Shown piece after piece: positions 37,669 through 51,164 of a DNA stretch of 64,000 bases. Under the pieces are notes generated by a model. It was not told the origin of the DNA, searched no databases, and saw nothing but the letters and a program-made list of their open reading frames with translations. The stretch is from Streptomyces sp. M92 (GTDB lineage Bacteria > Actinomycetota > Actinomycetes > Streptomycetales > Streptomycetaceae): contig NZ_CP101137.1 of NCBI RefSeq assembly GCF_028473745.1, positions 3,720,001-3,784,000 of the forward strand, in the 5' to 3' direction. How positions within the stretch are numbered: position 1 is the stretch's first letter; every line of letters starts with the position of its first letter. The translations under genes and the position numbers were made by a program.

Positions 37669-38717
37669 ATGACGAACCACAGCGAAACGACCGGACCCTC
37701 CGACAACGGTGACATCGAGGGATTCGAGGACTCCGGCCGGACGGCCCGCTTCCCGGACGACCAATCCCGTGACGAGCCGCAGGTCACCCTCCGCACCCCT
37801 GCCGAACTGGCCGACGCCCTGCCGTACCTGCTCGGATACCGCCCCGAGGACAGCATCGTCCTGGTCGCCCTGCGGGACCGGGACGGACGTGGCCGTTTCG
37901 GTGGCCGGGCCCGGCTCGGCGTTCCCGCGAACCCGGACGACTGGGCCGCCGCGGCCGGACAGCTGGTCCACGGCCTGGTGATCGGAAGCGAACGCCGAGG
38001 GGCACGCCCCGAGCAGATGGTGGCCTACCTCTGTCAGGAACCGGCACCGGGCGAGACGGGCCAGGACGTGATGGAACGACTGCGGCCGCTGGCTCAGCAA
38101 CTGCGCGTCGAGTGCGGCGCCCTGGACGTTCCGGTGGTCGAGGCGCTCTGCGTCTCGGCGGGACGCTTCTGGTCGTACGTCTGCGACGACCGGGCCTGCT
38201 GCCCGGCCGAAGGCACGCCCATGGGGCTGCCAGGCACGTCCGTGCTGGCCGCGGCGGCCACGTACGCCGGAATCCAGGTGCGCGGCACGCTCGGCGAACT
38301 GCGCGCCAGGCTCCTGCCCCGGGAGAACGATGTGGCCCTCGAGCAGGAAGCCGCCCTGGACGCGGCGGCCGTGCCGCTGGTGACGCGGATCCTCGACGAC
38401 GCCGGCCGCACGGAGGTGGCGCAGGAGACGCTGCACCTGGCACAGCGGGTGATGCGACGCCTCGCGGAGGCCCGGCCCGTGTCCGGAACGGCCGCCGAGG
38501 ACCTGCGCGACGACCTGCTGCTCGGACACGACGAGGCGGCGACGATGATCCTCGGCCTCCAGGACCGTACGACCCGTGATCGCGCCGCGGAATGGATGGA
38601 GGGGGACGAGGCGGCACCCGCGCTGCGCCTCTGGCGGGCCCTGGCCCGTCGCTGCGTCGGGTCGTACGGCGAGCACGCGGCCGCACCGCTCACCCTCGCC
38701 GGATGGGTCGCCTGGTC
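37669..38717 (+). pseudogene. DUF4192 gene, 5' fragment interrupted by the mobile element
   Basis: Encodes the first 349 codons of a DUF4192 protein (VTLRTPAELADALPYLLGYR, PEDSIVLVALRDRDGRGRF and onward to LTLAGWVAW). At codon 350 (TCT, 38716-38718) the family sequence stops. The frame then runs into the element and ends at 38814 after about 32 unrelated residues. The remaining 3' half is found in the same frame from 51167, beginning STGDELEAREALAMALG. Joined, the gene would encode about 520 aa. The truncated protein could still be made, because promoter and start are intact, but it lacks the conserved C-terminal part. DUF4192 function is unknown. Confidence 0.92.
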
Positions 38718-38745
38718 TGTTAACTGCACTATCTGGTTGATCTGC
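38718..38745 (+). repeat. Left terminal inverted repeat of the element
   Basis: CTGCACTATCTGGTTG at 38725-38740 pairs with the right-end repeat. In a circular form joined at GGTC, the two arms would flank a core of about 14 bp, as at tyrosine recombinase crossover sites. Confidence 0.7.
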
Positions 38746-38759
38746 TCGCGTCGAGGGCC

Positions 38760-39995
38760 GTGTGTGGTGAGCATGTGGGGATGCATGAGACTCCTTCGCT
38801 TCATGGCGATCTGATCGACGGACGGGTACGGATGCCCCGGGTGGGGGCGGTAGTGGCGGGTACGATGCCATCGCTGCCGTGGTTCGTGGTCGATGCCGCC
38901 GGCCGGGAGGTCGAGCCGGTCAGCCGGTACCTGCGGGACCGGATGCTGGGCGACGCCAGCCCCGAGACCTGCCGGAGCTACGCGTACGACCTGCTGCGCT
39001 GGTTCCGAGTCCTGTGGGCCCTGGACGTCGGGTGGGAACAGGTCACCGAGGCGGAAGCCGTCGCCCTGGTGGGCTGGCTCCGCCACGCCCGCAACCCGCA
39101 GCGGCAGCGCCGGCGCCCCGGCAGTCCCCAGCCCGGAACGGTGAACCCGAAGACCGGAAAGCCCAGGCTGCGGGCCGGATATGCACCGGCGACCATCGCC
39201 CACAACCTGACCGTGGTCCACGGCTTCTACGCCTTCCACATGCACTTCGGCCGCGGACCGGTGCTCAACCCCGTCCCGGAGAACCACGCTCGCCGTGCCG
39301 CGCTGTCCCACCGGTCGCCCCTGGAAACCCGGGCCGAGCACCGGCGGGGCCGATTGCGGCCGAAGCTGACCGCCCGGCAGCCGCGCGCCATGTCCGACCC
39401 GCAGTGGAACGAGCTGTTCGCGCAAATGGGATGCACCCGGGACCGGGCTCTGCTGGCCTGTTACGTCTCCTCCGGCGCCCGCGCCTCGGAACTGCTGGGC
39501 GTCGAACTCGGCGACGTCGACTGGACCAAGGGCCAGCTCTGGGTGATCACCAAAGGCACCCGGGCCCGGCAGCCCGTCCCGGCCTCCCCGGAGGCCCTGG
39601 CCCACCTCGCCGCCTACCTGGACGAGGCGGGACTGCCAGCGGACGGAGCCCTCATCTGGCGGACCCGGCGAGGTAAACCCCGGCCGCTGACCTACTGGGC
39701 GGCCCGACGGATCATCCAGCGGGCCGTCGAGAAGCTCGACTCGAACTGGACCCTGCACGACCTGCGGCACACGGCCGCCACCCGCATGGCCCGGGACCCG
39801 AAACTCACGCTCGTGGAAGTACAGACGATCTTGCGACACGCCCATATCAGCACCACCGAGCTTTACACGGTTGTCGGCCTGGACGACCTGGTCGACAAGC
39901 TTGCCGCCCACTACTCCCGGCCCGTTCAGCCGACGTCATGGCCGACCCAGTACGCTGCGGACGACATCGAGGCGGTGTTCGGTGGCGGGCAGTAA
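38760..39995 (+). CDS. Tyrosine recombinase A (TnpA-like)
   Basis: A 411-aa phage-integrase-family recombinase, probably the main integrase of the element. The N-terminal SAM-like DNA-binding domain spans about 45-150 (VSRYLRDRMLGDASPETCRS, LLRWFRVLWALDVGWEQV). The catalytic residues are Arg in SSGARASELLGVEL, HxxR in LHDLRHTAATRMA, His in ILRHAHISTTEL and the nucleophile Tyr in TTELYTVVG. The start is GTG 38760 or ATG 38781; neither has a strong ribosome site. Only about 45 bp separate it from the left junction, so it is likely transcribed from the host DUF4192 promoter. Its end overlaps the next recombinase gene by 14 nt. Confidence 0.9.
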   Translation: MCGEHVGMHETPSLHGDLIDGRVRMPRVGAVVAGTMPSLPWFVVDAAGREVEPVSRYLRDRMLGDASPETCRSYAYDLLRWFRVLWALDVGWEQVTEAEAVALVGWLRHARNPQRQRRRPGSPQPGTVNPKTGKPRLRAGYAPATIAHNLTVVHGFYAFHMHFGRGPVLNPVPENHARRAALSHRSPLETRAEHRRGRLRPKLTARQPRAMSDPQWNELFAQMGCTRDRALLACYVSSGARASELLGVELGDVDWTKGQLWVITKGTRARQPVPASPEALAHLAAYLDEAGLPADGALIWRTRRGKPRPLTYWAARRIIQRAVEKLDSNWTLHDLRHTAATRMARDPKLTLVEVQTILRHAHISTTELYTVVGLDDLVDKLAAHYSRPVQPTSWPTQYAADDIEAVFGGGQ

Positions 39996-42447
39996 GGTCG
40001 GCAACAGCCTGCGGTTGAAGGGCCCGACAACGAACAGGGTCCGCCGCCACGAACTCGACAGCTCCGTCTCGGCTGGCAACTTTGCGCCGACCGCGATCAC
40101 CCCCGCGCCGCCTCCGCCCCCGGCCCAGCCGCCCCGCTCTCTCGGCGACTTCAGCACTGTACCGGCCACGGAGATCGTCGCGGTCGCTGCCGAGCACTTC
40201 ACGCAGGGCGGGCAGGAGAAGGAGCGGTGGAGGCAGCGCAATGCCATGCGGGACTTCCTTGCACACCTCGCCACGTTCTCCGGGGCAACCTGGCAGGAGC
40301 GATGGGAGGCGTCCGGACACGATGGGGGACGGCCGGTCGGAGACGTTGCCGGCGACGACAAGCAGCTGCGTAACCGGCTGAACCGCGCTGCCGGTTACGC
40401 CTTCGCCATGCGGCTGGTCCGGCCCACCCTGCTGGGGTTCCGCTGCAACCGCTTCTTCCACTACGCGCCCTGGTTCCGCGGCGTCGCGAAGGACCCGTGG
40501 CTGGAGGAGTTCTGCGCGCGAGCCGACCAGCTGCCGATGGCACAGGCCCGCCGCAGCAAGGCGAAGTTCGACGTCTGCTGCGCGCTGACCGTCTTCGGCA
40601 TCGACCTGAAGGACCTGACGCCCGAGGCCCTGATGCACTACGCCGTCGAGTCCCGGGCCCATGGCCTGGCCGGTGAGAACTCGGAATCGGGCACCTACGC
40701 CGGAACTCTGGCCTGGCCGATCCTGCACGACATGGGACAGTTCCCCGCCTCCACACCCCGCAGCTTCCGGGCGGCCGTGACCCGCGGGCAGATCTCCGTC
40801 GAGGAGGCCGTCGACCGTCACCAGCTGCGCAACCGGGAAGTCCGGGACGTCCTGGTCGAGTACATCCGCCGACGCTCCGCCGGACTGGACTACTCCACGC
40901 TGCGCGGGCTGACCAACCTGCTGGTCAGGGTGTTCTGGAAGCAGATCGAGGAGATCAACCCGGACCAGAAGGACCTGCGGCTGTCGGAAGAGACCTTCAC
41001 CAGCTGGAAGGAATGGCTGCTGGTTCTGCCCAACGGCAAGCCCCGGCTGGACGTCGACGGGCCGCTGATGGCCGTCCGCGCCCTTTACCTGGATCTTCAG
41101 ACCTGGGCCGTCGCCGAGCCAGAACGCTGGTCGAAGTGGTCCGCCCCCTGTCCGGTCCGAGACGCTGACCTGCGTTGGTTCCACCTGCGGCGCCGTCGGC
41201 TGCAAGAGCGCATGGCCAACCGCACCCGCGACCGGCAGCCGCTCCTGCCGGTGCTGTCCCAGTACGTCAACGACACCTGGCACCGACTGCGGACCATGCT
41301 TGAAGCCGCCCGGCAGGTCGAGAACGGCGAAGAGTTCACCGTCGACGGGACCACCTGGCTGCGGGTCTCGACCAAGGACCAGCGGCACAACCGCCCGCCG
41401 ATCCGGGCCGTGAACCGCACCACCGGCGAACTCGTCCACCTGTCCCGGGACGAGAACAATGCCTTCTGGCAGTGGGCCGTCGTCGAGACCCTGCGGCTGG
41501 CCGGCCTGCGGGCCGAGGAACTGACCGAGCTGACGCATCTCAGCGTCCGGCAATACCAGCGATCCAGCGGCGAAGTCGTGGCCCTGCTGGTCATCTCCCC
41601 GTCCAAGAGTGACCGGGAACGGGTCATTCCCATGTCGGCCGAGCTGTTCCACGTGATCGCGCAGATCATCCGGCGTCACCGTGACCATCACGGCACTGTT
41701 CCGGTCTGCGCCCGCTACGACCTGCACGAAAAGGTCTGGAGTGAGGAGCTGCCCTACCTGTTTCAAACGTTCCACGGCGGCATCCAGCGAGGCATGTCCA
41801 CCACAACCATCTGGCGCATGATCAAACGGGCCTGCGACACACTCGCGGTCACGCACCCGCAGTTCAAGGGGGTGAAGTTCGCGCCCCACGACTTCCGCAG
41901 GCTGTTCGCCACAGAGCTGGTGAACAACGGTCTACCCATCCACATTGGGGCCGCCCTGCTCGGACACCTCGACATTCGGACGACCCGCGGTTACGTCGCT
42001 GTGTTCGACGAGGACGTGATCAGTCAGTACCAGCAGTTCCTCGCCCGGCGTCGGGCCGAGCGGCCCAAGGACGAATACCGCGAGCCCAGTGCCGACGAGT
42101 GGAGCGACTTCCAACAGCATTTCGACAAGCGTCGGGTCGAGCTGGGGTCCTGCGGCCGGCCTTACGGAACGTCCTGCGCGCACGAACATGCCTGCATTCG
42201 CTGCCCGATGCTAAGCATCAATCCCAAAATGCTGTTCCGGCTGGATGAGCTGGAGCAGGATCTGGTCCAGCGTCGCAACCGGGCAGTCACGGAGGGCTGG
42301 CAGGGCGAGATTGAGGGCATCGACCTGACTCTCACATTTCTGCGTGGAAAGCGGACGCAAGCCCAGCGCTTCCAGCGTAGCGAAACCGTTTACCTGGGGC
42401 TTCCTATTCAGAGGTCCTCAACAGGTGATCGGGCACGCGGATATTAG
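39982..42447 (+). CDS. Large tyrosine recombinase B (TnpB-like) with Cys/His tail
   Basis: An 821-aa site-specific recombinase. The first ~480 residues are a long N-terminal region without clear homology by eye. The catalytic domain has Arg in LRLAGLRAEELTEL, HxxR in FAPHDFRRLFATE, His in ALLGHLDIRTTRGYV and Tyr at RGYVAVF. A zinc-like cluster follows: SCGRPYGTSCAHEHACIRCP. This architecture (long N-terminus, catalytic core, Cys/His tail) fits Tn554 TnpB-type proteins. GTG 39982 has GAGG nine bases upstream and overlaps the end of recombinase A, so the two are translationally coupled. The expected third small gene (TnpC-like) is not found downstream. Confidence 0.87.
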   Translation: MAGSKVGNSLRLKGPTTNRVRRHELDSSVSAGNFAPTAITPAPPPPPAQPPRSLGDFSTVPATEIVAVAAEHFTQGGQEKERWRQRNAMRDFLAHLATFSGATWQERWEASGHDGGRPVGDVAGDDKQLRNRLNRAAGYAFAMRLVRPTLLGFRCNRFFHYAPWFRGVAKDPWLEEFCARADQLPMAQARRSKAKFDVCCALTVFGIDLKDLTPEALMHYAVESRAHGLAGENSESGTYAGTLAWPILHDMGQFPASTPRSFRAAVTRGQISVEEAVDRHQLRNREVRDVLVEYIRRRSAGLDYSTLRGLTNLLVRVFWKQIEEINPDQKDLRLSEETFTSWKEWLLVLPNGKPRLDVDGPLMAVRALYLDLQTWAVAEPERWSKWSAPCPVRDADLRWFHLRRRRLQERMANRTRDRQPLLPVLSQYVNDTWHRLRTMLEAARQVENGEEFTVDGTTWLRVSTKDQRHNRPPIRAVNRTTGELVHLSRDENNAFWQWAVVETLRLAGLRAEELTELTHLSVRQYQRSSGEVVALLVISPSKSDRERVIPMSAELFHVIAQIIRRHRDHHGTVPVCARYDLHEKVWSEELPYLFQTFHGGIQRGMSTTTIWRMIKRACDTLAVTHPQFKGVKFAPHDFRRLFATELVNNGLPIHIGAALLGHLDIRTTRGYVAVFDEDVISQYQQFLARRRAERPKDEYREPSADEWSDFQQHFDKRRVELGSCGRPYGTSCAHEHACIRCPMLSINPKMLFRLDELEQDLVQRRNRAVTEGWQGEIEGIDLTLTFLRGKRTQAQRFQRSETVYLGLPIQRSSTGDRARGY

Positions 42448-42532
42448 AGGGGTGGTGTGGTGCAGATATGGCCCGTCAGAGACGTGCCTTTCGTGAGGGG
42501 AATTAATCGCCCCGCGGAGAAACCTTGAACTG

Positions 42533-42847
42533 TCAGTGGGGCTGGGCAACCTCAAGCTCTGAGATGAATGTCAGTGTGGCTGCCTTGAGAACTGCATTGG
42601 CCCGGCGCAGGTCCCGGACTTCAACTTCCAGCTGGCGCAGCCGATCGTCAGCCGGAACTTCAACCGTAGGTTCACGACGGGCCTCGGCCTTCTTAACCCA
42701 ATGCCGCAGTACCTCAGGGTGGATCTTCATGAGGTCACCGACGGTACCTACTACGCCAACACGGTCCGGGTCCTGTGTACGGATGTCGAGCACCATACGA
42801 ACGGCGCGCTCCATGACCTCGGCCGGGTACCTGCGCTGAGCGGGCAT
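42533..42847 (-). pseudogene. IS3-family OrfA, orphan relic
   Basis: A 104-aa HTH_Tnp_1 protein, starting MPAQRRYPAEVMERAVRMVL, with IHPEVLRHWVKKAEARRE and the leucine-zipper-like LRQLEVEVRDLRRANAVLKAA. These are the hallmarks of OrfA of IS3 elements in Streptomyces. The OrfB integrase that should follow on the minus strand is absent: 85 bp beyond lies the end of the recombinase B gene. No IS inverted repeats were recognised. It is therefore a remnant, and its transposase function is lost unless supplied from elsewhere. Confidence 0.8.
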
Positions 42848-42987
42848 GTCACTACCTCCAAGCTGTTCGGCGCGGCCAGACAACGGTCACGGACCACGGC
42901 CTACTTAGCTGTCACCATGCGGCACGGCAAGAATTATGCACAACTGTTCATGGTGGTCAAAGAGGCGCGAGTGATCAAGTCGGTGCC

Positions 42988-43263
42988 GTGCCTCCGTCCC
43001 TGCCCGATCCTGTACTCCACGCCTTCGGGATGCACCTTCGGCGTATGCGTGAAGATCGCGGCATGACGCTGGAAGAGCTGGCAGCCCATAGTGGCCTGAG
43101 CTTCCGCGGAGTGGTCTACATCGAGCATGGTCAGCGCAATCCAAGCTTGACAACCTTGATTAACCTTGCTCGCGGCCTGCATGTCCAACCTTCCCGTCTG
43201 CTGGCCGTCTTCGACGCCGAGCAGGGAGCACTCTCGAAGGCAGAGACCCCGCCCCAAGGTTGA
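42988..43263 (+). CDS. XRE-family HTH regulator (small)
   Basis: A 91-aa protein with one Cro/C1-type HTH: FGMHLRRMREDRGMTLEELA, then SFRGVVYIEHGQRNPSLTTL and LARGLHVQPSRLLA, close to the complete five-helix domain. The start is GTG 42988 (another GTG at 42983 is out of frame); no strong ribosome site is visible. It stands alone between the IS3 relic and a minus-strand hypothetical gene. It may regulate element genes, for instance the recombinases or the downstream cargo; no operator was identified. Confidence 0.75.
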   Translation: MPPSLPDPVLHAFGMHLRRMREDRGMTLEELAAHSGLSFRGVVYIEHGQRNPSLTTLINLARGLHVQPSRLLAVFDAEQGALSKAETPPQG

Positions 43264-43420
43264 CGCGATGAACCAAGGCAGCCTGCACGGAGCTGAGGTC
43301 TCCATGGGCCGTTGCTATCCAACCTCGCGCTCTTCTAAAGCGGGTTGACCGACTCAGTACCTTGGCCTGGCGCTGGACTCAGGACTCCGTGAGTTCTCGA
43401 TTCGGCGCAGCTGGTGGGGG

Positions 43421-43894
43421 TTAGGAGGAGTGACCAGTGGAGCCTTTGTCGCCGCGGTGTCCTTTGCGGATCGTGTACTCGGGAACAGGCTTGGTGTACA
43501 CGCCGTATGGGTCTTCTCGCTCCCGCTTAGTGACCGGGATGATCGGGTGAATTGTGAAGCTGTCGATGTGAATTCTGTGGACTGCGGTGTTATTCATCTC
43601 GGCGAGGTAGGCGCGGACATGGGGCATGGCCTCGGTGTATGCCTCAGAAAGGGTTCCGTGCAGGGCATAGGTGCCTCGGTCTTTGTAATAGGGGATGCGG
43701 GAGTGGTCGCGTCCTTCCACGCGGTAGGTTGCGGTCCAGGTGCAGCCGATGGGGTTGGGTCCGAGGGGGTACTGCTTGGATCCGTCACAGTCTCCATAAG
43801 GGTCAATTTTGTGGTGCCCAACTTTGCCATCTTGCATTAGTTGGCGTTCCTGATGGCAGCCGCGGCATGTACCAGTCGACTTTTCGGTTGTCAT
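43421..43894 (-). CDS. Hypothetical protein with N-terminal zinc-like motif
   Basis: A 157-aa protein. The N-terminus TGTCRGCHQERQLMQDGKVGHH followed by DGSKQYPLGPNPIGC has a CxxCH...C pattern suggestive of a small zinc ribbon. The middle is SRIPYYKDRGTYALHG and HVRAYLAEMNNTAVHRIHID, and the end is charged and disordered. AGGAG lies six bases before the ATG at 43894, supporting expression. I do not recognise a family. It is a single gene on the minus strand between regulators; codon use is less GC-extreme than in the flanks. Confidence 0.6.
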   Translation of the reverse strand: MTTEKSTGTCRGCHQERQLMQDGKVGHHKIDPYGDCDGSKQYPLGPNPIGCTWTATYRVEGRDHSRIPYYKDRGTYALHGTLSEAYTEAMPHVRAYLAEMNNTAVHRIHIDSFTIHPIIPVTKREREDPYGVYTKPVPEYTIRKGHRGDKGSTGHSS

Positions 43895-44130
43895 GGTTTC
43901 TCCTGCTGGGTGTACGGCGCCTCACTGGGCATCGGTCGGGCTCTTGACGCGTGGCTCAGTCAGGCGTCCTCCAACTCCTCGTAAAATACTCATCCAGACC
44001 TGAGCCCAGTCTCAGTCCGGGTGGTACAAGATCAGCGTCTCCTCTCAGTCGAATACCCATTTGAGCTAACGAGGTGCCAGTCGCGAGCATTGAACGCTGG
44101 CAGTCCTTGCGGCTACTTCGCACTTCTCGA

Positions 44131-44706
44131 TCACGTGATGGGCGTGCGGAGAGGCGTGTAGCCGCTGTCGATCCGTTCGGCCGCTTCCTCCTCGTCCAAG
44201 TAGTCGACGCCTTCGCCGTGGCACTCGAAGCACCTCTCCCAGACAAGTTGGCCTTCGAGGTCAATGACTTGTAGGGACCCATCACCGTCGCATTCAAGGC
44301 ACGCAAATACATACTCGCCGGCTACCAAATCCATGTCGCTGAACCCGATTTGGAAATGGACGAACTGTTCTTCGGGGAGGCCGGTGCCGCTGGCGCGGCT
44401 ATCGCGCTTATGGATGGCTGTAGTCGTGCGGCTGTTGGAAAGGGCGAAGAAGCCTCCGACCGCTGCAGCCGCGATGCCGCCGACCATACCTACTTTGCCA
44501 ACGGGCCCGAGGCTGTTCCATCTGTCAGCGATTTGTCGACGCAAGGGCTTTGCCTCATGGCTGCCCTCTGGCGCTAGCTCGGAAGGCTGAGGCTCACCGC
44601 TCGGAGAGCGGGATGTCGTATCGTCCGGCGCTGTCATTTGACGGATCGCCCTCTCTTCTCTGGTAGTCGGGAGTTTGGCGGCATAGGTCTTGACTGCTTG
44701 CGTCAT
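44131..44706 (-). CDS. Hypothetical membrane protein with DnaJ-like zinc motifs
   Basis: A 191-aa protein. Residues 1-70 are hydrophilic (MTQAVKTYAAKLPTTREERA onward). One transmembrane segment follows at about 72-95 (VGKVGMVGGIAAAAVGGFFA). The C-terminal part has two CxxCxGxG motifs, CLECDGDG and CFECHGEG, separated by about 15 residues. These are the pattern of one half of the DnaJ central zinc-binding domain, and the tail is acidic. A role in folding or redox sensing at the membrane is conceivable but unproven. It is not in the HerA operon; the hairpin at 44867-44909 separates them. Confidence 0.6.
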   Translation of the reverse strand: MTQAVKTYAAKLPTTREERAIRQMTAPDDTTSRSPSGEPQPSELAPEGSHEAKPLRRQIADRWNSLGPVGKVGMVGGIAAAAVGGFFALSNSRTTTAIHKRDSRASGTGLPEEQFVHFQIGFSDMDLVAGEYVFACLECDGDGSLQVIDLEGQLVWERCFECHGEGVDYLDEEEAAERIDSGYTPLRTPIT

Positions 44707-44866
44707 GGGTCAGAGATAGGAGAATGAAAAGCTACCCGTTCCGGGCCTCCCCGGAGGTCGTGCCAGCTGGTCAAGCGCGCCTGCGGCGGCGTTGCGTGCG
44801 GGGCTCTGCCGACCCTGTACAGTCCGGCTCGCGCCCTTGGCTAGCTATCGGGCGCCCCTTCCTTAC

Positions 44867-44909
44867 GGCGCTCGGGGAGGTTGGCGGTCACCACACCTCC
44901 CCGAGCGCC
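44867..44909 (-). terminator. Terminator of the methyltransferase/NurA/HerA/HxlR operon
   Basis: GGCGCTCGGGGAGGT (44867-44881) and ACCTCCCCGAGCGCC (44895-44909) are perfect 15-bp arms around a 13-nt loop. It lies 23 bp past the HxlR stop codon. Confidence 0.88.
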
Positions 44910-44932
44910 AAGTGGCAGTTGCGGTAGGGCAT

Positions 44933-45268
44933 TCAGCGTGAACCGGCTGAGTATGCTGCCACGTCGCGCAGCCGATTCAGAGCGGCAGCTACTTGCTGGC
45001 CAAGGTCTGTGAGCCGGTAGGTGATGGTTACCGGTCGGGTTGCAGCGACGTGTCGGGAGACCAATCCGCTGCTCTCCAGATTAGCCAGGCGACTGGAGAG
45101 CATGCGGTTGGATATGCCAGGAACGTATCCCTGGATTTCGCCAAATCGTCGCGGGTTTCCGCAAGTGTGGAGTGCCAGCAGGATGTGCATCGTCCACCGG
45201 GCCGAAAGGGTTTGAAGAAGGTCATTTTCGGCTTCGGTCAGTGGGATTTTGCGATTGCTGGCGGTCAT
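44933..45268 (-). CDS. HxlR-family regulator
   Basis: A 111-aa winged-helix regulator. The family signature is present: LLQTLSARWTMHILLAL, then RRFGEIQGYVPGISNRMLSS and RLANLESSGLVSRHV, with LTDLGQQVAAALNRL closing. HxlR proteins often sense redox or reactive electrophiles through an N-terminal Cys; here the only early Cys is in LHTCGNPRRF. ATG 45268 has GGAAGGAAGG upstream and lies 28 bp beyond the HerA stop, so it is the last gene of the operon. It may autoregulate the module, which would fit a defence system kept silent until needed. Confidence 0.82.
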   Translation of the reverse strand: MTASNRKIPLTEAENDLLQTLSARWTMHILLALHTCGNPRRFGEIQGYVPGISNRMLSSRLANLESSGLVSRHVAATRPVTITYRLTDLGQQVAAALNRLRDVAAYSAGSR

Positions 45269-45296
45269 GTCCTTCCTTCCTCGGTGTGGTAGGAGC

Positions 45297-47525
45297 TTAG
45301 AAGGGAGGCTTTTCTCCGTTCTCGGCGGTGTCGAACAGAGTGTCGCTCTGCTTGTCCTCGTCCTTCTGGTTCGCTTCCGTCTCGGACTTCGGAGCGTGTT
45401 CCTTGAGCATGATGAACTTGGGGAATTTGCCCGGGCTCTTGTCGTCTTCCCGAGACTCTGAGACCCACTGATCCGGGTACAGTTGATCAAGCGCCTGCTT
45501 CACCAAGCGCCTGCCCCAGTCGAAGGCGGATCCATCGCGCTGGGCGTGAGCGGGTGCCTTCTCTGCCAGCATGTGGGAGACATGACCCCACTTGATGCCG
45601 CGGGGGGTGTTGATCATTTTGTGGAACTCGGGCTTATTGTCGCGCAGGTGGACGATCGCGATTGCGCTGTCGTCCCCCGTGAGATCTTCTCCAGCTGCCA
45701 CGCTGGTCGTGTTCTGGGGGTGGGTGGCGGCGAGGCTGGCGGAAGCGGCCCGCGCTTCGGAACGTCGTTCTTCGACTTCGGTCCGGGCCTGGGTGGCGAA
45801 GCTGTCGGGGGCCGGGAGCGAGTAGTCAGGGTCGGCCATCTCGTAGGAGCCCTCGAAACTGAGGACGCGCACGGAGACGGGGTAGGGGCGTGAGTGGCGG
45901 TCGGTGCCAGGTGCGCTGGACCAGTAGATGCCGTTGCCGACGAGCGGCTCGTTGAGCAGGGTGGCGAGCAGGTCTTCGGAGAAGTGGGCGTTGGCCTTCT
46001 TCAGGGAGATGAGGTCGCCCTGCGAGAGTAGGTGGAAGACGAAGAAGTTGTCGCCCTGGCTGAGGAGTTCCTGCGGCAGACTGCCCGGCTGCTGCGTGAT
46101 GAGAAGTGCGCCGAGATCGTATTTGCGGCCTTCCTTGACCCAGGAGACGAAGGGGCCGTCCTCGCTCTGGCTGGAGCCTCCGAGGACGGACTGAGCCTCC
46201 TCGATGACGGCGATGGTGGGGATGGACTTGGGGTCGGATTCGGTGAACTGGGTCTGGTTGTGTTCGAAGATGTCGCCGAGGATTACGCCGGCGAGCTGAA
46301 GTCCCTGAGAGCCGCGCATCTGGGAGATGTCCACCACGCAGAGTTTGCCCTGGGACAGGCAGTCCTTCAGAGCGCTCAGGAGCTGGCTGTCGGGGTCGTG
46401 GAGCGCGTTGACGACGCGGGTCATGTTGCCGATCGCGGCGTTGGTTTCGGCCTCCTGGCTTTCGCCAAGGTTCAGGATCTCTCGGACCTGGTCGCGGTCG
46501 GCTCCGTACTTGTCGCGGTGGATCAGGTCGACGAGACGGCTCCACCTGGGCCCGTCGAGGGACTTGAGTTTGACGACGTTCTGTTGATCCTGCTTCTCCG
46601 GCGGCAGCGCGATACCGAGCACGCGCGAGGCCTGCAGTTCCTTGATGTTGAGCTTGACGCCGTTGACGACAAAGGACTGGTAGAAGTCGCTGGGTCCCTT
46701 GCGGTTGGTGAAGACGACCAGCTTGTCGCGCAGGTGCGGCACGTCGCACAGGGCGGGGCGGCCCTTGAAGTCGGGCCAGAAGTATTCGCCGTCCGGGTCG
46801 AAGATGACCGTGCCCACAGGGGCTTCGCCAGAGCGGCGAGGGACGGTGGGCTGGTGCTCGTACAAGGCGGAAAAGAGCAGCTTGACGAGGTTGGACTTGC
46901 CGAAGCCGGCGCGGGCGAAGACGAAGCTGCGGCGGGCGACGAGCTTGTCGATCTGGAAGGTGGGCATGATCGCGGGCTGCTGGATCTGCATCCAGGAGGT
47001 GTCGCCTACGCGCTTGTCGTTGCCGGCGTAGACGAATTCACCGAAGGCGAGGTAGCCGATGGGCACTGCGCCGTCGTCGGTGTCGTTGGCGTTGACGACC
47101 TCGGCGAGCAGGTCGTCTCCCAGGAGTGCGACCTGGGCGCCGACGTGCGGCAGGCGCCGGTGGCTGGGGACGAAGATGTGCTTGTCGCCCTCCATGCGGA
47201 GCACGCCGAGGATGCGGATGTCGACCTTGTACTTCAAGTAGCGTTCGCGCAGCTCGTCGGGGATGGGCCGCTGGTCGCGCACGGCGCGGGTGGCGTAGTC
47301 CTCGCCGATGGGAGACACCAGGCGTCCCTGGGAGGAGATGGTGGTGATCCGCCCCAGGATGGCCTCACGCTCGTGCTCAAGCTGGACAAGGACGAATTGG
47401 CCGTGCATGGCCATGGTCTGGAAGTTGTCGTGGTGCGGCAGGACGAGATCGGCGTGGAACTCCATGCCACTTTCAGCGAAGCCGCGGAAGGTGCCGACGA
47501 CTTTGTCGCGCTCGAACAGGCTCAT
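45297..47525 (-). CDS. HerA-like hexameric ATPase (DUF87)
   Basis: A 742-aa FtsK/HerA-type ATPase predicted to pump or unwind DNA for a partner nuclease. The N-terminal HAS-barrel-like domain covers about 1-195. Walker A is FARAGFGKSNLVKLLF (about 202-217), and FDPDGEYFWPDFKG follows. Walker B is PTIAVIEEAQSVLGG (about 436-450), and LLITQQPGSLPQELLSQGDN is the conserved sensor region. A charged C-terminal extension (about 590-742) is extra compared with archaeal HerA. It lies 44 bp after the NurA-like gene. In bacteria, HerA homologues paired with nucleases are known anti-phage systems; this pairing is the basis for that inference here. Confidence 0.9.
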   Translation of the reverse strand: MSLFERDKVVGTFRGFAESGMEFHADLVLPHHDNFQTMAMHGQFVLVQLEHEREAILGRITTISSQGRLVSPIGEDYATRAVRDQRPIPDELRERYLKYKVDIRILGVLRMEGDKHIFVPSHRRLPHVGAQVALLGDDLLAEVVNANDTDDGAVPIGYLAFGEFVYAGNDKRVGDTSWMQIQQPAIMPTFQIDKLVARRSFVFARAGFGKSNLVKLLFSALYEHQPTVPRRSGEAPVGTVIFDPDGEYFWPDFKGRPALCDVPHLRDKLVVFTNRKGPSDFYQSFVVNGVKLNIKELQASRVLGIALPPEKQDQQNVVKLKSLDGPRWSRLVDLIHRDKYGADRDQVREILNLGESQEAETNAAIGNMTRVVNALHDPDSQLLSALKDCLSQGKLCVVDISQMRGSQGLQLAGVILGDIFEHNQTQFTESDPKSIPTIAVIEEAQSVLGGSSQSEDGPFVSWVKEGRKYDLGALLITQQPGSLPQELLSQGDNFFVFHLLSQGDLISLKKANAHFSEDLLATLLNEPLVGNGIYWSSAPGTDRHSRPYPVSVRVLSFEGSYEMADPDYSLPAPDSFATQARTEVEERRSEARAASASLAATHPQNTTSVAAGEDLTGDDSAIAIVHLRDNKPEFHKMINTPRGIKWGHVSHMLAEKAPAHAQRDGSAFDWGRRLVKQALDQLYPDQWVSESREDDKSPGKFPKFIMLKEHAPKSETEANQKDEDKQSDTLFDTAENGEKPPF

Positions 47526-47569
47526 GACGGTTCTTGCTCCACAGTGCGCGGGGCGGACAGAAGGAGGTG

Positions 47570-48694
47570 TTACTCGTAGCGGCGGGCAGCCACGTCGGAG
47601 GCCAGCCGCAGGGCGTCGATGACCGGGGCCTTCTCTTCGCCGACTTGGTCTCGGACGGCGTCGACGAGCTGGTCTTCGATGATGTCCATGTCCAGGTCGG
47701 CGACGCGGGAGAAGCTGTCAGCCTGCTGGATGCAGTTCGGGTAGAGCGGGATCGGGAAGCCGGCCACGGCGTCGGCTTGCAGGTAGCCGAAGATTGCCTG
47801 GGCTTCCTTGTCCTGGCGGGACATCACGTCCACAGTCCAGATGGGGTCGCCGGAGTAAGGTCCGAAGCGGACGAAGTACATGGAGCCGATGTTGAACTTC
47901 GGCTTCTCGCCCTTCGAGTCGTCGTCAATGCCCCTCGTGTACTCGTCCCACAAGTACACCTCGTCCAGCATCTTCGAAGGAACCTTGGCGAAGCAGGCGG
48001 CACCGTTGTCGAACACGCCGGACAGAGAGATCGCAAGCCGGTAGTACTCCAGGACCTGGGTCTTCTTCGCCAGCCCCACCAGCCACACCTTGCGGCGGTC
48101 ATTGCGGCGGATTCGTTCGATGGCCTCGTACATCAGCTCGCCCATCTTCACGAACAGCTCGCCGTGGAAGATCTTGCTGCGCAGCAGGCCGTCGCGGACG
48201 ATGAGGGTGTCGACTGCGTAGTCGCGGTGACAGATCAAGTCGTACAGGGTGGCCCACTCGCACAGGTCGCGGAAGACCAGCACCCAGCTGGGCGACTTGC
48301 CGGACATCATTGGCGACAGGTCCTGGAGCCTCTCGACGCCCAGTCCGTGCATCATCCTGCCGAGAGCGGTGCGTGGGCTGCCGTCCTCGTGGAACTGGCG
48401 GCGACTCAGGGCGTCGATGTCGGAGATCGGGGAGACGACCTCCATGCACAGCTCCTTGCCGCTGGAGTCCACGACCCGGACGACTTGAAGGTAAAACGGG
48501 TTGAAGGCGACCTTGTTGTTGCCACCGTCGGAGGCCATCAGGGCAACCGACGTAGCCGCCCGCGGCTTGATCACCCGGACCTCGGAGCGGATGGCGCGGG
48601 CCTGCTCGACGAGCTTGTCCAACTCCGCGCGGCCGGCCTCAACCTGGTCGCCGATCAACTGTTTGAGCTGCTTGATCTGCTCCGCGTCGAACAT
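47570..48694 (-). CDS. NurA-like nuclease, partner of HerA
   Basis: A 374-aa predicted DNA nuclease. After an N-terminal coiled helix (KQLIGDQVEAGRAELDKLVE) comes ALMASDGGNN with the first acidic residue (Asp56). TLIVRDGLLRSKIFHG follows with the second Asp (about 158), then WLVGLAKKTQVLEYY with the conserved Lys pair. This D...DG...K order is that of the NurA fold (5'-3' exo/endonuclease, Mn-dependent in archaea). The identification is by motif and by the adjacent HerA gene, so it remains inference. The start at 48694 has GGGGAGAGG directly upstream on the minus strand, which decides against the longer frame from 48706. Confidence 0.75.
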   Translation of the reverse strand: MFDAEQIKQLKQLIGDQVEAGRAELDKLVEQARAIRSEVRVIKPRAATSVALMASDGGNNKVAFNPFYLQVVRVVDSSGKELCMEVVSPISDIDALSRRQFHEDGSPRTALGRMMHGLGVERLQDLSPMMSGKSPSWVLVFRDLCEWATLYDLICHRDYAVDTLIVRDGLLRSKIFHGELFVKMGELMYEAIERIRRNDRRKVWLVGLAKKTQVLEYYRLAISLSGVFDNGAACFAKVPSKMLDEVYLWDEYTRGIDDDSKGEKPKFNIGSMYFVRFGPYSGDPIWTVDVMSRQDKEAQAIFGYLQADAVAGFPIPLYPNCIQQADSFSRVADLDMDIIEDQLVDAVRDQVGEEKAPVIDALRLASDVAARRYE

Positions 48695-48724
48695 GCCTCT
48701 CCCCACACCACGCTCGCGTTGTCA

Positions 48725-48769
48725 CAGACGAGTGGTTCACTCGTCTGGCCCCACAGCATGGCATGGGGC
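48725..48769. promoter_or_regulatory. Two adjacent inverted repeats upstream of NurA/HerA genes
   Basis: CAGACGAGT-GGTTC-ACTCGTCTG (48725-48747, perfect) is followed immediately by GCCCCA...TGGGGC (48748-48769). They lie in the 121-bp gap between the methyltransferase stop and the NurA-like start, and could be operators, or a hairpin that separates the methyltransferase transcript from the rest. Confidence 0.65.
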
Positions 48770-48815
48770 ACTGACAATCCGTCACGTAGTTGTGAGAAGT
48801 AACTGGGTTACCCGA

Positions 48816-49946
48816 TCATCGGACAAGTCCGATCAACTCGGCGACAAGATCGATCTCATCGACGGCGGAGCCCGCTTTGCCGAACTGCTGGGCCTGACGT
48901 GCGCGCTTGGGCGGAGTGCCTGCTTGGCGAACCTCCTTGACGACCCACCCGGCCTTCGCTTCCCTCACGGAGGCCAGAAGCATCTGTTCCGGGTCGGTAC
49001 GTGCAGAGGGCAGGGCGCCGAAGCGGATGGCGAGCCGGGCACCTTGGTGGCAGCGTCGGGCAGTGGCAGCCCACACTTCGGCCAGGGCCTGGATGAACGC
49101 CTCCTGGTTCGGCTGACGGGCGATCTGCCCGTGCGTACCGTAGGGGACCTCCGGAGGACCGCCGAGGAACCACGAGCGCAGCCACTGGTCCGCCACGTAG
49201 GTGCGCATGCCGTAGTACGGGGGAGAGGTGACTACCAGGTCGAACTTCTGGCGCAGGCCGTTGAGGATTTCGACGGAGTCACCGAGGTAGACCTTCCCGC
49301 CATGGGCGAGAGGGGCCGCCTCTAGTAGGCGTTTGGCCCGCCGCTCGATGACCTCCAGGGCCGGGATGCGCACCGGCTTCATGTCGCGCTTGGACCAGAA
49401 CTTCACCGCGTAGGCAGGCTTGGAGGCGTAGGTACGCGGCATCTGGTTCGACAGGTATGACGGGAGGTTCTTATTGCGCGGGCCGTGCAGAATGCCCAGC
49501 ATGACCGCCCGCAGCATCGCCGCCGTCGGCGTGGTCATCTCCAGCAGGGCCTCGCGCAGAGTCACAAGCTCGCGCAGCGTCTCGCGCTCGAAGCACCACT
49601 GCCAAAAATCGCCCTCGGGTTCCTCGCCCCGTACGCCGCCGTCGAGGATCTGCCGAGCGAGCCTGACCACGGCGGCGGGTGTGACCTGGATGAGCTTGGC
49701 CTGGGCTATGGCGGCGGCCACCGGGTTGATGTCGATGCCCACCGACGGCAGTCCGGCTAGGCGTGCGGCGTATAGCGTGGTGCCCCGCCCGCAGAACGGG
49801 TCCAGCACTCGGGTGCCCTGAGGGTGGGCGGCAAGTTGCTGAAGCGGGAAGTCCAACGGGAACATCGTGTAGTACGGGCAGACGGCGTTCAGCCGCAGCA
49901 CATCTTCGGGCCAGCTATAGGAAGGGGCCGCCGCGGTCACCGTCAT
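48816..49946 (-). CDS. Amino-type DNA methyltransferase (N4-cytosine/N6-adenine)
   Basis: A 376-aa SAM-dependent DNA methyltransferase. Motif I is RVLDPFCGRGTTLY (about 47-60, SAM binding), followed by GIDINPVA. The catalytic motif IV is DLVVTSPPYYGMRTYV (about 236-251); S/T-PPY favours N4-cytosine, but N6-adenine is possible. The long intervening region (about 90-235) may contain the target recognition domain. The ATG at 49946 lies inside a palindrome and just 30 bp from the divergent controller-like gene, so the mRNA is likely leaderless. It leads the operon with the NurA- and HerA-like genes downstream after a 121-bp gap. Confidence 0.9.
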   Translation of the reverse strand: MTVTAAAPSYSWPEDVLRLNAVCPYYTMFPLDFPLQQLAAHPQGTRVLDPFCGRGTTLYAARLAGLPSVGIDINPVAAAIAQAKLIQVTPAAVVRLARQILDGGVRGEEPEGDFWQWCFERETLRELVTLREALLEMTTPTAAMLRAVMLGILHGPRNKNLPSYLSNQMPRTYASKPAYAVKFWSKRDMKPVRIPALEVIERRAKRLLEAAPLAHGGKVYLGDSVEILNGLRQKFDLVVTSPPYYGMRTYVADQWLRSWFLGGPPEVPYGTHGQIARQPNQEAFIQALAEVWAATARRCHQGARLAIRFGALPSARTDPEQMLLASVREAKAGWVVKEVRQAGTPPKRARQAQQFGKAGSAVDEIDLVAELIGLVR

Positions 49947-49979
49947 GGGTGTAATGCTACAGGTATAGTTACACCCATG
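49944..49979. promoter_or_regulatory. Perfect inverted repeat spanning both divergent start codons
   Basis: CATGGGTGTAA (49944-49954) and TTACACCCATG (49969-49979) are perfect 11-bp arms separated by 14 bp. The outer ends are the start codons themselves: the methyltransferase ATG on the minus strand at 49946 and the XRE ATG at 49977. It resembles a controller-protein box of restriction-modification systems. A TATAGT-like -10 element lies at 49964-49969. Confidence 0.9.
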
Positions 49980-50279
49980 GCACGAAGGAGGCTCGATCCC
50001 GCCGCCCAGCGCCGCGGGCAGGTGCTCGCCTCCCGCCTGACGCAGGCCCGCCGTTCCTCTGGACGATCAGCCGAGGCTGTGGCTCGCAGCGCCGGCATCT
50101 CCGTCGAAACCGTGCGCAGCATCGAGAAGGGCCGCACAGCTACGCCGGAATTCTTCACCGTTGCTGCCTTGGCCACTGAGCTGGGGCTATCACTGGACGA
50201 GCTGTACACCTTCACCCGCCGTGACTCCGCCCACGACGCCCAAGCGCCCGTCGACCCAAGCGTCAGATCCTCTAGCTGA
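49977..50279 (+). CDS. Controller-like XRE regulator
   Basis: A 100-aa protein with a single Xre HTH: VLASRLTQARRSSGRSAEAV, then ARSAGISVETVRSIEKGRTA and FTVAALATELGLSLDELYTF. Size and layout match controller (C) proteins of restriction-modification systems, which bind a palindrome and time expression of methylase and nuclease. ATG 49977 is at the edge of the palindrome and has no ribosome site upstream, consistent with a leaderless transcript; the longer frame from 49824 overlaps the methyltransferase gene. Its 3' end overlaps the HNH gene by 90 bp on the opposite strand. Confidence 0.85.
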   Translation: MARRRLDPAAQRRGQVLASRLTQARRSSGRSAEAVARSAGISVETVRSIEKGRTATPEFFTVAALATELGLSLDELYTFTRRDSAHDAQAPVDPSVRSSS

Positions 50280-51011
50280 ACCCTCCGACCGGCAGGAGCT
50301 TGCGTCCCCAGCGGTCCTGTAGCTCACCGTAACCTCCGGGGAGTCGACGTCGCCGTGGAACTGCACACGCCGGCTCCTCCAGTCTTCGAGGAGAGGGATA
50401 GGGGCGTTTCCGGGCTGCGCCAGGTAGGTGCCTTCATACCACCCGAGCGCGTGTCGGTTACAGGCGATGCACAGCATCCCTCGCACGCAGCCCTGGCAGT
50501 AGTTATTGGGGCTGTGTCCTCTTGTGCAGTCGTGCGCATGGTCGAGCTGCCAGCCCCTCTGTCCTGGGTCCGATGCTCCGCAAAGGCAGAGGCCGCCTTG
50601 AAGAGCCAGGATTGCGTCGCGGGAAAACTGGGAAATGCCCCGGCCGTAGTGCACGTTGCACAGGCCGCGCGAGTGGGACGCAGCCTCGCAGTCTCCGTAC
50701 CGGCAGGTCGGTCCCCATTCCGCCTGTGACTTCCATCCCCGTATGGGGGTGAGCGGCTTACCATCCGACCACTGCTGGTAGTGAGTGGCGCAATAACCAC
50801 CGGAGGAGTGCGGGCGGTCGCACGGTGGGGCGTCGAACTGACACTTGGTGTACAGACCCGCGGGTAGCTTTGCCTTGATGGGTCTAAGGGGGAGTCCCTG
50901 ACGCGCTTGGTCGTAGTGCGACCTGCACAACGGCACGCCCGCTGACCGGGCCCGGAAGGGGCGTCCGCAGCCTTGGAAACTGCATGCTTCCGCGTTCTGG
51001 CCCACCGCCAC
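50190..51011 (-). CDS. HNH (endonuclease VII-like) protein with three Cys/His repeats
   Basis: A 273-aa protein. The first ~125 residues hold three zinc-finger-like repeats: CSFQGCGRP...LCRSHYDQ, CQFDAPPCDRP...YCATHYQQ and CRYGDCEAA...LCNVHYGR. The first two are each followed by G-x-PL-x-PI. The nuclease domain is LQGGLCLCGASD, WQLDHAHDC and RGMLCIACNRHALGWY, the recombination endonuclease VII HNH pattern. The start is GTG 51011 (a second GTG two codons on). It may be the nuclease of the methyltransferase system or an independent homing or defence nuclease. It is convergent with, and overlaps, the controller gene. Confidence 0.82.
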   Translation of the reverse strand: MAVGQNAEACSFQGCGRPFRARSAGVPLCRSHYDQARQGLPLRPIKAKLPAGLYTKCQFDAPPCDRPHSSGGYCATHYQQWSDGKPLTPIRGWKSQAEWGPTCRYGDCEAASHSRGLCNVHYGRGISQFSRDAILALQGGLCLCGASDPGQRGWQLDHAHDCTRGHSPNNYCQGCVRGMLCIACNRHALGWYEGTYLAQPGNAPIPLLEDWRSRRVQFHGDVDSPEVTVSYRTAGDASSCRSEGSARGSDAWVDGRLGVVGGVTAGEGVQLVQ

Positions 51012-51147
51012 CCCAGCCCGTCCCCGGTTCGATCACCAGACTTGACGGAACCTACCGCACCAGCTGTGGCCTCGGCGGCTATTTGACGCCTGGTACTCAA
51101 TTGCTTGCCGTATGTGCCTCAGACGCATGCCGGGTAACTCCGACAAC

Positions 51148-51164
51148 CGAGTTAGTGCAGAGAA
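51148..51164 (-). repeat. Right terminal inverted repeat of the element
   Basis: CAACCGAGTTAGTGCAG (51144-51160) is the partner of the left repeat CTGCACTATCTGGTTG, 16-17 bp with one gap and two mismatches. It lies immediately before the GGTC junction at 51165. Confidence 0.7.

Follow-up and report, generated by a model that had tools for sequence, protein, structure and literature searches.

A methyltransferase–NurA–HerA module on an integrative element of Streptomyces sp. M92 is most likely a widespread, methylase-linked relative of TdpAB

The window analysed here is a stretch of 64,000 nucleotides of Streptomyces sp. M92 (contig NZ_CP101137.1, positions 3,720,001 to 3,784,000; genome of 7.79 Mb in two contigs). 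It carries an integrative element in which the genes for a DNA methyltransferase (MTase), a NurA-like nuclease and a HerA-family ATPase follow each other, together with a gene for an HxlR-family regulator. This module is most likely a widespread, mobile and methylase-linked relative of TdpAB, with DNA donation as the main rival reading. A predicted function in defence is well supported by the homology to TdpA and TdpB, the patchy distribution on mobile DNA and the logic of the operon. The original prediction is partly supported: defence remains the preferred interpretation, without the six-part unit in which it had been cast. The module probably behaves in a restriction-modification (RM)-like manner, in which a TdpAB-type motor-nuclease would destroy DNA lacking the mark of the MTase.

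All four genes were found on the minus strand in the order MTase, NurA-like, HerA and HxlR. The open reading frames confirmed this arrangement, for which the same order and a single strand had been claimed earlier. The start of the NurA-like gene is most likely at position 48694, where it matches the starts in relatives. With this start, the intergenic spacing amounts to 121 bp between MTase and NurA, 44 bp between NurA and HerA, and 28 bp between HerA and HxlR; the two latter values are those previously reported.

The NurA-like protein of the window alone gave no match in Pfam, NCBIfam and PADLOC (E ≤ 0.1) or in PHROGs (E ≤ 0.001). The Pfam NurA family (PF09376) was matched by nine out of 63 family members at E ≤ 0.01 (best 6.3e-5), the window protein remaining unmatched. 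A predicted NurA fold had been set beforehand as a test of the assignment, and it was obtained by AlphaFold from 63 sequences with a predicted local distance difference test (pLDDT) of 87.6 and a predicted template modelling score (pTM) of 0.85. The closest solved structure was TdpB, which was ranked first by Foldseek (E 3.5e-11) and by VIA-align (Z 24.1, 326 residues, 3.8 Å) with 17% identity over the structural match, followed by archaeal NurA (Z 14.4) and then by more distant Argonaute-type folds. A profile made from the 63 rows and searched against PDB sequences retrieved TdpB as its sole match at E ≤ 0.01 (6.5e-6). Three residues (Table 1) were identical in 63 of 63 rows.

For HerA, the best PDB sequence match obtained with phmmer was TdpA (6.1e-17; runner-up 2.1e-8), and the P-loop residues were invariant in six rows. 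The best PDB matches of both proteins are therefore the components of TdpAB (PDB 8wet, 8wfd, 8y1k), likewise a HerA-family motor and a NurA-like nuclease, although HerA is longer here (742 amino acids (aa)) than TdpA (586 aa). In the Tdp phosphorothioation system, the phosphorothioate mark shields the host from TdpAB, and the phosphorothioation enzyme TdpC is a defining component. This system with TdpAB as effector is said to have been described by An et al. in Nat Chem Biol in 2025. A DNA MTase is found here where Tdp has TdpC. No sulfur-transfer or adenylation-type family was detected among the 12 element proteins scanned for families, two of which displayed no family at all. Since no such family was found and an MTase stands in the place of TdpC, the module is proposed to work like Tdp and not to be a member of it.

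In the MTase, motif I (DPFCGRGTT) precedes motif IV (SPPY), and both are invariant in 38 rows. The enzyme is of the N4-cytosine or N6-adenine type. The AlphaFold 2 model (pLDDT 87.0) gave E. coli Dam as top Foldseek match (5.7e-8; template modelling scores 0.37/0.51). With PADLOC 2.0.0, HerA and the MTase matched generic HerA (4.1e-17) and type II MTase (2.6e-19) models only.

Relatives of HerA were collected by an alignment scan of the contigs of GTDB species. The best 80 of 154 confirmed relatives, ranked by HerA similarity, were retained, a non-random sample with many metagenome-assembled genomes (MAGs). Genes at these loci were called with purpose-written scripts in place of a standard gene finder, giving 3, 9, 5 and 4 genes for L047, L054, L095 and L101, respectively. 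NurA adjoins HerA on the same strand in 79 of the 80 relatives, with a gap of at most 60 bp in 78; in the 80th (L064) the contig begins about 156 bp before HerA, and the one locus without such a short gap (L049) looks disrupted. Such same-strand adjacency is more than chance. An MTase of the same family was found nearby in 60 of the 80 loci (within 500 bp in 59), either before NurA (27 loci) or after HerA (33 loci, in seven of which it lies on the opposite strand). No other constant partner emerged, the widest non-core gene clusters reaching 8 of the 80 loci. Among the 53 rows with full-length HerA, NurA and MTase, the window included, pairwise distances correlated with r 0.94 for HerA–NurA and r 0.76 for HerA–MTase; none of 2000 permutations was as high, and shared ancestry accounts for part of the correlation.

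These comparisons identify MTase–NurA–HerA as the conserved core, with the HxlR regulator, the Endonuclease VII gene and an Xre regulator near 43 kb of the window outside it. The co-occurrence in other genomes that the original prediction had called for was thus found: the neighbourhood is not unique to the strain, and the core occurs across numerous bacterial groups and in some archaeal ones. The combination of methylase, NurA, HerA, HxlR, C-protein-like regulator and HNH gene as one unit was not borne out. Eleven actinobacterial loci were compared for this purpose, namely a close set (L021, L032, L033, L034 and L035, plus the disrupted L049) and five more distant loci; L020 (G183) and L035 (Streptomyces sp. 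MBT53) are apparently one contig and count as a single entry. Endonuclease VII was present in none of the 11, and HxlR in three of the five loci bearing the divergent Xre gene (L021, L032 and L033; not in L034, L035 or L049).

The distribution is both wide and patchy. Phyla are mixed on the HerA tree (17 named, one of them archaeal), and an identical HerA protein occurs in a Cupriavidus and a Pandoraea. Within the genus, NurA was detected in 3 of 246 genomes, that of the window included. In 396 Actinomycetota, NurA was found in six (E ≤ 0.01) and HerA in eight (E ≤ 1e-20), and one of the six NurA matches (0.0015, 41 residues) is probably due to chance. On a viral contig from IMG/VR (L122:3720-8091), NurA, HerA and MTase immediately precede phage genes for a portal protein, a head protease and a head decoration protein; the match to the portal profile begins at its position 121. 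This contig was the only one retrieved with the NurA alignment as query, and a scan of viral contigs with the single NurA protein gave nothing. Plasmids gave no NurA match and only partial HerA matches of at most 33% identity, and phages gave no HerA match.

Rarity and mobility bear on the view that NurA and HerA are a DNA repair pair for end resection, accompanied by a hitch-hiking orphan methylase. The NurA fold of the model agrees with such a role, end resection is a role considered for the NurA–HerA pairs of archaea and Deinococcus (e.g. PMC9960219), and a few actinobacterial copies without MTase sit among housekeeping-looking genes (L036, gene names assigned by eye). Against this, the genes occur in so few genomes of the genus and travel on an integrative element, the 12 scanned element proteins include none of a rad50/mre11-type family, and TdpB is far closer to the NurA model than archaeal NurA by Z score. 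Taken together, a repair function is very improbable. At L036:4816-8149 itself, the NurA–HerA pair without MTase is flanked by alanyl-tRNA-synthetase-like and RuvX-like genes (by eye), and this copy is perhaps domesticated.

In the RM-like model, the MTase would mark the host DNA. The HerA ring, as suggested by its homologues, would pump duplex DNA into a NurA dimer, which would degrade it. Marked DNA would be spared and, by analogy with Tdp, incoming unmarked phage or plasmid DNA destroyed. The divergent Xre regulator, bound at a candidate operator, probably times expression such that the mark is set before the nuclease appears. Overall, the action would resemble that of TdpAB, the role of the phosphorothioation enzyme TdpC being taken by a methylase. 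For HerA–NurA of T. kodakarensis, ATP-dependent degradation of both strands of double-stranded DNA was described, and the authors suggested an antiviral use (PMC12977600). The RM-like model predicts that loss of the MTase is harmful as long as NurA–HerA is active. One decayed copy (L027 in G331) has an open MTase frame, a HerA frame with stops and no detectable NurA, a pattern to be expected if the burden lies with the nuclease. Upstream of this copy, genes for an SNF2-type helicase and a PglZ protein were observed.

The genes around the module in its relatives were scanned for known families (120 of 243 near genes and 120 of 145 far genes, the Pfam result covering the 25 commonest of 141 families). 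At E ≤ 1e-15, PADLOC families numbered 164 for the 120 near and 73 for the 120 far genes, and the near models include type I RM, type IV, DISARM-, MADS- and Pbe-type ones. Among Pfam families, the plasmid-partition type RepB was commonest near the module, with 6 of the 120 genes. The neighbourhood lends weak support to defence islands and shows mobile surroundings just as much.

Several observations weigh against the RM-like model. The PADLOC enrichment is modest as well as confounded, as a single RecQ helicase accounts for 17 families, the near set comprises more residues, and no family occurs in more than three near genes. The MTase showed no identifiable target-recognition domain. At position 326 of NurA, 50 of the 63 rows have His, 12 including the window protein have Asp and one has Leu. 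Archaeal NurA requires a C-terminal His, so the nuclease activity of the window protein should not be taken for granted. A second decayed copy (L026 in G256) retains a partial HerA, and its MTase is broken too. When 18 genomes with an MTase-less locus were searched as a whole, 12 of them (many MAGs) gave no MTase elsewhere at E ≤ 1e-10, so the NurA–HerA pair may be able to do without this methylase. Finally, two MTase-less loci (L053, L094) have another MTase-family gene nearby. In the remaining six genomes, three full MTases of the family (E < 1e-145) and three weaker partial matches were recovered; two of the three displaced MTases share a contig with the pair, roughly 9 and 15 kb away on the upstream side of NurA.

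These data could also be read as defence of another kind, with the MTase doing something other than simply marking self: the trigger would be DNA ends, phage proteins or a foreign modification, and the methylase would be separate or regulatory. Twenty of the 80 loci have no nearby MTase (17 once 18 of these genomes had been searched as a whole). The MTase stands before, after or opposite to the pair, and the HerA tree requires 14 changes of label to account for its place or absence. The archaeal HerA–NurA cleaves double-stranded DNA regardless of end structure (PMC12977600). This reading is nevertheless regarded as quite unlikely, given the same MTase family in three quarters of the loci (60 of 80) and MTase distances that track those of HerA (r 0.76). 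Moreover, some of the 20 loci are cut by contig ends (e.g. L055, L061, L064), and three have their MTase elsewhere in the genome.

The mobile nature of the window copy was established by comparison with relatives. In two of them (L118 and L119, from G007 and G006) the position matching 38717 of the window joins 51165 directly and the DUF4192 protein is unbroken; in a third one (L120, G004) the nucleotide match stops likewise at 38717 and the DUF4192 frame continues. The empty site was seen in three out of three relatives compared; of five other matching genomes, two with partial matches had been left out. The DUF4192 gene of the window is therefore interrupted by a 12,447-bp insertion. By eye, GGTC was found at both junctions and CTGCACTA near both ends in opposite orientation, and a script search for 9-base inverted words found none. 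The GC content of the element is 0.645 compared to 0.72 for the flanks. The location within a mobile element had been recognized rightly by the original prediction, and its limits can now be given precisely (Table 1).

A gene set of like make-up is known from ICETh1 of Thermus thermophilus, also on an integrase element. Its tdtA operon comprises a NurA homologue of 377 aa, TdtA of the HerA/FtsK superfamily, an N4/N6 methylase of 410 aa and a type IIG enzyme (PMC5365140). DNA donation by this element was abolished without TdtA and strongly reduced without NurA or the type IIG enzyme (PMC5365140), and the methylase had a minor effect only (PMC7767461). The likeness is drawn from the published description and at superfamily level only; ICETh1 differs by its additional type IIG enzyme, its demonstrated role in donation and a TdtA of about 64 kDa. 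No description of MTase–NurA–HerA as a defence system was found among the top-ranked matches listed in literature searches, and no priority is claimed. The earlier statement that the combination had not been described thus holds for defence among those matches, but not for the make-up as such, which was published for DNA donation in Thermus.

By this precedent, NurA and HerA would process DNA and export it to other cells, with a secondary role of the methylase. The comparable ICETh1 operon (PMC5365140), the integrative element that likewise carries the window copy, and the RepB/ParB plasmid-partition-type genes, the most frequent near Pfam family, are in line with donation. On the other hand, no type IIG-like gene is found in the element, the Thermus process requires natural competence of the recipient (PMC7767461), and no relaxase or conjugation family is among the commonest near Pfam families listed. 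Donation is therefore considered unlikely, although it is the strongest competitor of the RM-like model. Two loci with the MTase 9–15 kb upstream encode a protein of about 1100 aa immediately before NurA (L077:5378-8695 and L108:5484-8723, homologues by clustering). The 1105-aa protein of L077 was considered as an ICETh1-like type IIG enzyme and rejected, as Pfam assigned a Sacsin-type domain and NOV_C to it.

Other known systems share single components with the module. We know of no methylase partner for the HerA–NurA pairs of archaea and Deinococcus. These resemble the module by the NurA fold and the HerA partner and differ in being discussed for end resection, the antiviral suggestion from T. 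kodakarensis aside (PMC12977600). DUF4297-HerA and Sir2-HerA (Nezha) also combine HerA with an effector (PMC11291478, PMC12948488); this effector is DUF4297 or Sir2 and not NurA, and the component lists given in the available part of PMC12948488 are without methylase. Neither DUF4297 nor Sir2 was detected in any module protein by Pfam, NCBIfam and PADLOC scans. A classical type II RM system does not apply: next to the MTase there is a nuclease of NurA fold, accompanied by a motor, in place of a sequence-specific restriction endonuclease. MADS consists of eight genes, mad1 to mad8. Only mad2 (3.7e-10, MTase), mad8 (1.4e-10, HerA) and mad1 (0.0027, Xre) were matched here, each below other models. 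In the available portions of two recent surveys, on HerA/FtsK capture systems and on BREX-related systems, the term NurA does not appear (PMC10853773, PMC12839542).

A broader and tentative proposal, which we hold to be possible but doubtful, is that HerA–NurA of the TdpAB type represents an exchangeable engine with a swappable self-mark, phosphorothioate in Tdp and base methylation here, which may serve DNA donation in Thermus. If true, the ring motor would sense backbone or base modifications during pumping, and restriction and DNA export would be two uses of one family across bacteria and archaea. Phosphorothioate-linked TdpAB, DNA donation in Thermus and archaeal HerA–NurA would be united by one motor-nuclease core. 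It would also add a widespread, methylation-linked type of restriction that has no name among the PADLOC 2.0.0 models, and it raises the question of how a HerA ring distinguishes marked from unmarked DNA.

The divergent Xre regulator is 76–85% identical in L021, L032, L033, L034 and L035. The other six of the 11 loci checked, namely the disrupted close locus L049 and the five distant ones, yielded no copy of it. Its start codon and that of the MTase are 30 bp apart, and both are covered by the inverted repeat proposed as operator (Table 1). Of six loci compared, the window and L032 have this 11-bp repeat in perfect form and the other four in imperfect form; among 300 random 66-mers drawn from the element, five contained an equally good 11-of-11 repeat. 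For these reasons the candidate operator is no more than suggestive. The regulator that had been called C-protein-like corresponds best to another Xre gene (42988-43263), with HTH_VI (9.1e-11) as first and Control_protein (5.8e-10) as second PADLOC match. The label fits this gene better than the divergent Xre, which has no PADLOC Control_protein match and yet is the only one of the two conserved with the module. The gene at 42988-43263 gave a single 45% match (L021) among the 11 actinobacterial loci and was dropped as a part of the system because it is not conserved with the module. Concerning the single terminator announced for the operon, a hairpin with perfect arms is indeed present directly 3' of HxlR, but it lacks a T-run and is absent from the output of a consensus terminator scan.

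Table 1. Features of the integrative element and of the module, in window coordinates
Feature	Position	Strand	Evidence
Integrative element, 12,447 bp, in the 3' part of a DUF4192 gene	38718..51164	.	Uninterrupted site of relatives
Tyrosine recombinase	38865..39995	+	PF00589 4.2e-21
Second tyrosine recombinase, large; the frame is open from 39871 and the start uncertain	39982..42447	+	PF00589 9.3e-18; gene call
Candidate terminator hairpin, two perfect 15-bp arms, without T-run, directly 3' of HxlR	44867..44909	-	By eye
Accessory regulator of the HxlR family, at the end of the operon	44933..45268	-	PF01638 1.9e-20
HerA/TdpA-like translocase ATPase, 742 aa	45297..47525	-	HerA/DUF87 PF01935 4.6e-15
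NurA/TdpB-like nuclease, 374 aa	47570..48694	-	Fold model; D56, E146, D168 invariant in 63 rows
DNA methyltransferase	48816..49946	-	PF01555 6.4e-10
Candidate operator, 11-bp perfect inverted repeat CATGGGTGTAA/TTACACCCATG, 14-bp spacer	49944..49979	.	
Divergent Xre-family regulator	49977..50279	+	PF13560 9.8e-11

The gene previously annotated as HNH is present, but its family is Endonuclease VII (PF02945, 4e-9). It is located at 50190-51011, convergent with the divergent Xre gene and overlapping its 3' end by 90 bp, and it was dropped as a part of the system owing to its absence from the actinobacterial loci. Two small open frames lie between the 43-kb Xre gene and HxlR, one at 43421-43894 with no Pfam family at E ≤ 0.1 and one at 44131-44706 that weakly matches a DnaJ-type family (E 0.014). 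The element also contains a transposase OrfA-like fragment (PF01527) at 42533-42883.

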